Source of the DNA: Planctomycetota bacterium
GTDB lineage: Bacteria > Planctomycetota > Phycisphaerae > UBA1845
DNA length: 64,000 nt
Reading direction: 5' to 3'
Assembly: GCA_024280855.1 (NCBI GenBank)
Contig: JAJRPG010000027.1
Location: forward strand, 1 to 64,000
Below the pieces are notes generated by a model. It did no database searches. It saw only the letters and a program-made list of their open reading frames with translations, and was not told the DNA's origin. Shown here one piece after another: positions 57,424-58,257 of the stretch; the first letter of the stretch is position 1; the number at the start of each line of letters is the position of its first letter. A program made the translations under genes and the position numbers.

Positions 57424-58257
57424 TCAGTGTTCGTGCTTTTCTATTTGTTTTTTGGAACCCATTAGTACGGTAGTGTTGGGGTGTTTTTTTCGCCATTCGC
57501 CTAGCGTGATGACGGGCGGCTCTTCGATGAAGGGGATGGTCTCGCCTTTACGTGGGCCTGAGATAGCTGTCCACTTGGTGTCGTCTAGTGGATACCAAAG
57601 GCTTTCCGTTTTTCTATCGAAGATGAGGAATACGTTTTTGTGGACATAGCCACTGACTCCGAACTCGTCTGTTGAACCGTTAATTTTACGTCCGTGAACC
57701 ACGGACAATTGGGCGAGTGGTCACCAGCCTACGGTGACGGGTTTGCCACCGATGATGTCGTTGACTAATTCGTGGCGGTCGAGCAAGGCGACGGGGTAGG
57801 CGCGTGCGACATCGCCCTGGATAAATCCGATGACGTGTATTTCATCATTGACCGAGGCGCGTTGGTCTTTTCGGTAAGGGCTTTGTGGAACGTGTTTTAG
57901 AAGTCGGGGGTCGTCTGGTGAGACGAACATGGGGTCGTCGATGCTGGGGATGGCGTCCTTGCCGATGCCGTATTGAAGCTCGGCTGTGGGGATGGGGGAG
58001 CCGGTGAAGTCGTACCAGAATGCGCCGGGGGCTGAAGGGTCTGAGCCTCGCATTCCGCCGTAGAGCATGGTCTTACCGTTTTCGACTTTGACCTTTTTGC
58101 TATTGGGGCCTAGGAGGCCTCGGAAATTATTCTTGCCTGAGTTATCCCCGGCAAAGCTAGGCAGGGACGCGCAGGCCAAGACTAAGCCTGCGAGGGCGAT
58201 GCCCTTGGTGCGGTTGAAGTTGGCCGAGCTGGCCCCGTCGTGGAATTTCATTTTCAT
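57424..58257 (-). CDS. DUF3179 protein, candidate selenoprotein (in-frame UGA at conserved Cys)
   Basis: Read through one TGA (57721-57723), the frame gives 277 residues. A signal peptide (GIALAGLVLACASLPSFAG) is followed by DUF3179 features: DEIHVIGFIQGDVARAYPVALLDRHELVNDIIGGKPVTVGW, then residue 179 encoded by TGA, then PLAQLSVV, FGVSGYVHKNVFLIFDRKTESLWYPL and GEWRKKHPNTTVL. In family members the corresponding place reads YCPLC, so the TGA falls on the first Cys. The mature protein has no Cys at all. The downstream 98 codons are intact. A hairpin matching bacterial SECIS rules follows the TGA. Alternatively it is a gene killed by one nonsense mutation. ATG 58257 has AAGGA nine bases upstream. 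The biochemical role of DUF3179 is unknown to me. Confidence 0.75.
57690..57706 (-). promoter_or_regulatory. Candidate bacterial SECIS hairpin
   Basis: On the minus strand GTCCGTG (57706-57700), loop GTT (57699-57697), CACGGAC (57696-57690): a perfect 7-bp stem. Between the TGA and the apical loop are 21 nt. The published rules, as I recall them, are a 16-37 nt spacing, a loop of 3-14 nt with G among its first two bases and a stem of at least 4 bp; all are met. Confidence 0.6.

Follow-up and report, generated by a model that had tools for sequence, protein, structure and literature searches.

An In-Frame TGA in a Planctomycete DUF3179 Gene Is Predicted to Encode Selenocysteine in a Secreted Protein

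Introduction

The window analyzed here, i.e., the whole stretch of 64,000 nucleotides at the start of contig JAJRPG010000027.1 of a Planctomycetota bacterium (assembly GCA_024280855.1), contains a DUF3179 gene that is interrupted by a TGA codon, which raises the question of whether the gene is broken or whether the TGA is translated as selenocysteine (Sec). A first-pass annotation of this DNA had favored a secreted selenoprotein and had put DUF3179 forward as a candidate new selenoprotein family. The features of the locus are given in Table 1.

Table 1. Coordinates of the features of the DUF3179 locus in the window.
Feature	Position	Strand	Details or basis
DUF3179 gene, predicted selenoprotein	57424..58257	minus	277 residues, Sec at 179, terminal TGA included
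Probable signal peptide, residues 1–36, cleavage after SFA	58150..58257	minus	By eye and orthologue N-termini
PF11376-matching region, with predicted beta domain	57427..57960	minus	Profile match and predicted model
In-frame TGA, residue 179, at invariant Cys/Sec column	57721..57723	minus	Homologue alignment
SECIS-type hairpin core, 7-bp stem GUCCGUG/CACGGAC, loop GUU	57690..57706	minus	21 nt after TGA; covariation

The Interrupted Gene and Its Homologues

When the frame was read from 58257 to 57424 on the minus strand, the TGA at 57723–57721 was found to be its sole interruption. The TGA is preceded by 178 codons and followed by 98 codons and a terminal TGA, and the read-through product of 277 aa reads MKMKF...VTVGW-U-PLAQLSVVHGR...EKHEH. 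This product scored 117 bits against PF11376 (gathering cut-off 27), matching about positions 1–155 of 292, which corresponds to the first half of the profile. The description of an otherwise intact DUF3179 gene with one TGA and 98 family-like codons behind it was thereby confirmed. The only Cys of the protein, C29, falls in the likely signal peptide as judged by eye, in agreement with the earlier remark that the mature protein has no other Cys. An NCBIfam search with both DUF3179 proteins of the genome matched no model.

Only two DUF3179 matches were present in the source genome, and in both a single TGA interrupts the frame at the same codon. A search of the source genome together with 59 relatives gave 32 matches with E < 1e-36, each of which contained exactly one stop, a TGA; no further disabling mutations, which the first-pass annotation had named as a point against its proposal, were found in these closest matches. 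Within the window subclade, TGA occupied the same column in 15/15 aligned members. The Sec/Cys column was read out in 65 distinct homologues, obtained with a search pattern that also permitted Ala at this column, and contained TGA in 45 and Cys in 20; neither TAA nor TAG was ever found in place of TGA in the 45 TGA genes. Six columns were invariant in a 62-row alignment: Y154, E163, C/U179, P180, G203, and W221. The annotation had placed the TGA at the conserved Cys of the family and had proposed to look for TGA or Cys there in homologues; the placement was correct, and these two were what the column held. In a quick tree, two Sec/Cys changes sufficed, and the window sequence was placed among 27 Sec sequences that split into a window-type and a paralogue-type subclade. 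A contig labelled Gemmatimonadota (JAOTZH010000147.1; L104:4001–4735) was also found to encode a 57% identical Sec-DUF3179 with the UPLA motif, which may reflect either transfer or mis-binning.

Downstream of the TGA, dN/dS was 0.03–0.10 (genus and clade, where computable), values lower than or similar to those for the 100 codons preceding it. These values bear on the explanation that the gene is a non-functional pseudogene or the product of a sequencing or assembly error, the stop having arisen by recent nonsense mutation or through misreading of TGC or TGG. A lone stop in an open frame has the appearance of a recent nonsense mutation, and the source assembly (G000; 4.56 Mb, 96% complete) is a draft in 112 contigs. 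However, this explanation is refuted by the recurrence of the TGA at the same codon, in 32/32 of the closest matches and 45 distinct sequences from the phylum, together with the low dN/dS past the TGA and the lack of a second stop. The codon is common to relatives and the region behind it is under purifying selection, and we consider a pseudogene or an error practically out of the question.

The SECIS-Type Hairpin

Downstream of the TGA, the sequence GUCCGUG-GUU-CACGGAC forms a hairpin of 7 Watson–Crick pairs with its loop 21 nt past the TGA, and a G-U pair (57707/57689) can lengthen the stem. The perfect 7-bp stem, the GTT loop with G as its first base and the spacing of 21 nt were all exactly as first annotated. 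Bacterial SECIS elements are reported to have a loop of 3–9 nt, a stem of 4–16 bp, a distance of 16–37 nt from the UGA, a G as first or second loop base and an energy of −7.5 or lower (PMC13188914), and the window hairpin lies within all of these published limits. Its energy of −10.7 kcal/mol (z −0.59) was inside the shuffled range; because this energy is unremarkable, a fold test alone would have missed the hairpin, and the support for it comes from position and covariation, not from energy. Among synonymous recodings of the window gene, 18/100,000 gave the 7 pairs at the same place and 66/20,000 gave an equally long stem anywhere in the SECIS-like range.

Standard pairs made up 97.8% of the 7-pair stem across the 45 distinct TGA genes, and 5/7 pairs were changed on both sides. 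Double-change cells in the stem numbered 44 compared to a shuffled mean of 11.9, and the covariation score was 0.483 compared to 0.184 for shuffled alignments and at most 0.16 for slid controls, in which the slid stem partners paired at 26–48% only. The full stem was found in 41/45 TGA genes but in only 1/20 Cys genes. On average, the TGA genes showed 6.84 of the 7 pairs, whereas synonymous recoding gave a mean of 5.24 and a maximum of 5.67 in 500; the Cys homologues were at their recoding null (3.65 pairs compared to 3.57). The protein code alone therefore does not account for the stem, since the recodings stay below the observed pairing. The loop GU was invariant in 45/45 TGA genes, which a conserved Val codon explains in part, and synonymous divergence was 0.25 in the hairpin codons compared to 0.75 elsewhere. 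A covariance model of the hairpin, run over the source genome, detected no clear gene besides the two DUF3179 genes. One Cys-form DUF3179 gene (L024, genome G275) also has a 10-bp hairpin where a SECIS would lie; its genome is scored 100% complete and lacks SelA. This hairpin was matched by 353/20,000 recodings; it is possibly a fossil SECIS left after a Sec-to-Cys change, which is only suggestive.

Selenium Machinery and Decoding of the TGA

All four genes that the first-pass annotation had proposed to look for, selA, selB, selC, and selD, were present in the source genome. A match to selA scored 486 bits; selB (648 aa), which adjoins selA, was identified by eye, the selB model having been run on the relatives; a tRNA-Sec with anticodon UCA scored 61 bits; and selD scored 367 bits. 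The selD gene (L015; G000:C39:6050–6973, minus strand) has its own in-frame TGA in the active site (SCAG-TGA-AGK); about 33 nt downstream of it, a GUU loop is closed by a perfect 7-bp stem. SelD of this genome is probably itself a selenoprotein. Beside selB, the frame of a deiodinase-like/thioredoxin-fold gene (L012:10143–10805, G000 contig C102) is interrupted once by TGA (FGSYT-TGA-PPFRR), and 17 nt further on there is a 7-bp hairpin with a GGU loop; this neighbor of selA/selB is likely a further selenoprotein.

The TGA form of DUF3179 was found in at least 52 genomes among the matches listed from a 392-genome sample. A full SelA, counted when the match exceeded 180 bits, was present in 47/52 genomes with TGA forms compared to 35/66 genomes in which the listed matches were Cys-only (Fisher p 8e-6, uncorrected for kinship). 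The five TGA-bearing genomes without a full SelA match were all drafts, 77–92% complete. Among the 59 relatives, selB was over the cut-off in 49, and the four TGA carriers without it were drafts 63–81% complete.

As several genes of the source genome have an in-frame TGA, this codon might be thought to be reassigned to Trp or Gly. However, TGA is also an ordinary stop in this genome, terminating 3/9 clear window genes and selB. Furthermore, the homologue column contains Cys and never Trp or Gly, the Sec system is complete, and the hairpin is specific to the TGA forms, so that reassignment is given hardly any credence. The ORF list contains both pieces of the gene, the second starting with TTG 13 nt after the TGA. 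Termination at the TGA and a restart at the TTG at 57708 could thus give two cooperating polypeptides of 178 and 94 aa. This would lose the invariant catalytic-type column, through which the Cys homologues run continuously; moreover, TAA or TAG never substitutes for TGA among the 45 genes, the hairpin obeys the SECIS rules, and the machinery for Sec is encoded in the genome. We therefore regard two separate products as very improbable.

Taken together, the sel genes, the agreement of the hairpin with the SECIS rules, the TGA/Cys column and the intact relatives supported computationally the original reading of the gene as encoding a selenoprotein, and comparative sequence evidence makes it almost certain that the TGA is read through with selenocysteine at residue 179. 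In the proposed mechanism, SelB carrying Sec-tRNA-Sec would bind the GU-loop hairpin after the UGA, selenocysteine would be inserted at residue 179, and the ribosome would go on to the 277-residue product; judging from the signal peptide recognized by eye, this full-length selenoprotein would then be exported. The seemingly broken planctomycete gene would thus be a conserved selenoprotein gene of a form, the TGA-form DUF3179, that is common in the phylum and that gene finders stopping at TGA would cut short in every case.

Relation to Known DUF3179 Selenoproteins

The DUF3179 domain-containing protein (pfam11376) is tabulated as a selenoprotein family with the motif UxxC/T in two reviews (PMC9312934, PMC13188914), both of which credit Zhang and Gladyshev 2007 and the deltaproteobacterial symbiont of Olavius algarvensis. 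Since it is tabulated there, DUF3179 is not new as a selenoprotein family, and the novelty proposed in the first-pass annotation could not be upheld. Compared via the tables of these reviews, the window gene shares with the tabulated Sec-DUF3179 the Pfam family, Sec at the Cys position and the occurrence of Sec/Cys homologue pairs. The tabulated motif is UxxC/T, whereas both the window gene and its paralogue have UPLA and match neither UxxC nor UxxT; this motif describes the listed examples and is not a definition of the family.

The 27 genes of the window clade carried the motif UPL[AVSD], with A, V, S, or D at the last position. Unlike the tabulated members, this planctomycete clade has a short form and almost always no other Cys beyond the N-terminal segment, the exceptions being L078, with Cys 225 near the C-terminus, and L081, where the N-terminus of the reading is fused or over-extended. 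The UPL[A/V/S/D] motif, the short form and the near-lone Sec seem to be unlisted so far, and the departure of the clade from the known family in its lone Sec and short form is modest. Cys-containing planctomycete DUF3179 proteins (YCPLC, some CPLA) have the same six invariant columns as the window protein (Y, E, C/U, P, G, and W), but they have a Cys codon, show the full hairpin at the SECIS place in just 1/20 cases, and are mostly of a longer form with two similar halves, whereas the window protein is short. By eye, the long DUF3179 proteins (alignment A3) appear to repeat a similar half in tandem (AYP...ND...YDR/T.SLW), with the Cys missing from the second copy, and the window protein corresponds to a single half.

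Predicted Fold and Possible Function

A literature search on DUF3179 found no paper on the function of the family. For both the window protein (pLDDT 88) and a Cys homologue (pLDDT 89), AlphaFold predicted a confident, mostly beta core; residue 179 was placed at the end of the strand 172–179. A search of the PDB by sequence found no relative, and Foldseek searches of the PDB with both models gave nothing significant. With a second structure aligner, Rieske domains were the best beta-domain matches of either model; these alignments spanned about 90 residues and had Z scores of 5.1 and 5.8, below 8, the level that this aligner treats as telling.

The predicted beta domain thus has a weak likeness (Z 5–5.8, about 90 residues) to Rieske [2Fe-2S] ferredoxins. 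These carry Cys/His cluster ligands, whereas the window protein lacks them and has no detectable sequence similarity. The ligand patterns C-x-H and C-x-x-H were absent among the conserved columns, and there is one Cys/Sec past the N-terminal segment. Kinship with Rieske proteins is not claimed, because profile comparison with the Rieske proteins of the source genome itself found no similarity; the cluster ligands are also missing, and the resemblance serves only as a lead. Based on the predicted models, the planctomycete clade might represent distinct secreted single-selenol proteins on a Rieske-like scaffold, in which the cluster ligands were lost and the lone Sec became the redox center, an idea that we consider quite doubtful. 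If true, a fold that normally bears an iron–sulphur cluster would use one selenocysteine without a resolving cysteine instead.

Since the Sec is almost always the sole Cys/Sec past the N-terminal segment, a one-selenol redox enzyme is the most likely function, a proposal by analogy with general selenoprotein chemistry in which we have about even confidence. Without a second Cys in the clade, two-Cys or Sec-Cys chemistry would not be available within one chain, and the lack of a resolving Cys implies that the oxidized Sec would have to be reduced by an outside thiol or a partner protein. The Sec might instead have a non-redox role in metal binding or structure. The missing resolving Cys and the weak resemblance of the predicted fold to a metal-cluster fold are consistent with such a role, but most known Sec residues are redox-active (PMC9312934) and no conserved Cys/His ligand set remains next to the Sec, so that we consider it unlikely. 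How an exported selenol works on its own could usefully be studied in this Cys-poor Sec clade.

The function could not be deduced from conserved gene neighbors of the DUF3179 loci, because the shared loci were too few: an exopolysaccharide cluster was found in only three window-type loci, and ECF sigma and anti-sigma genes in only three loci of the paralogue set. In the source genome, the paralogous Sec-DUF3179 gene (L013:4499–6777) follows an ECF sigma factor gene and an anti-sigma-like gene, and this pair is near just two other paralogue loci.
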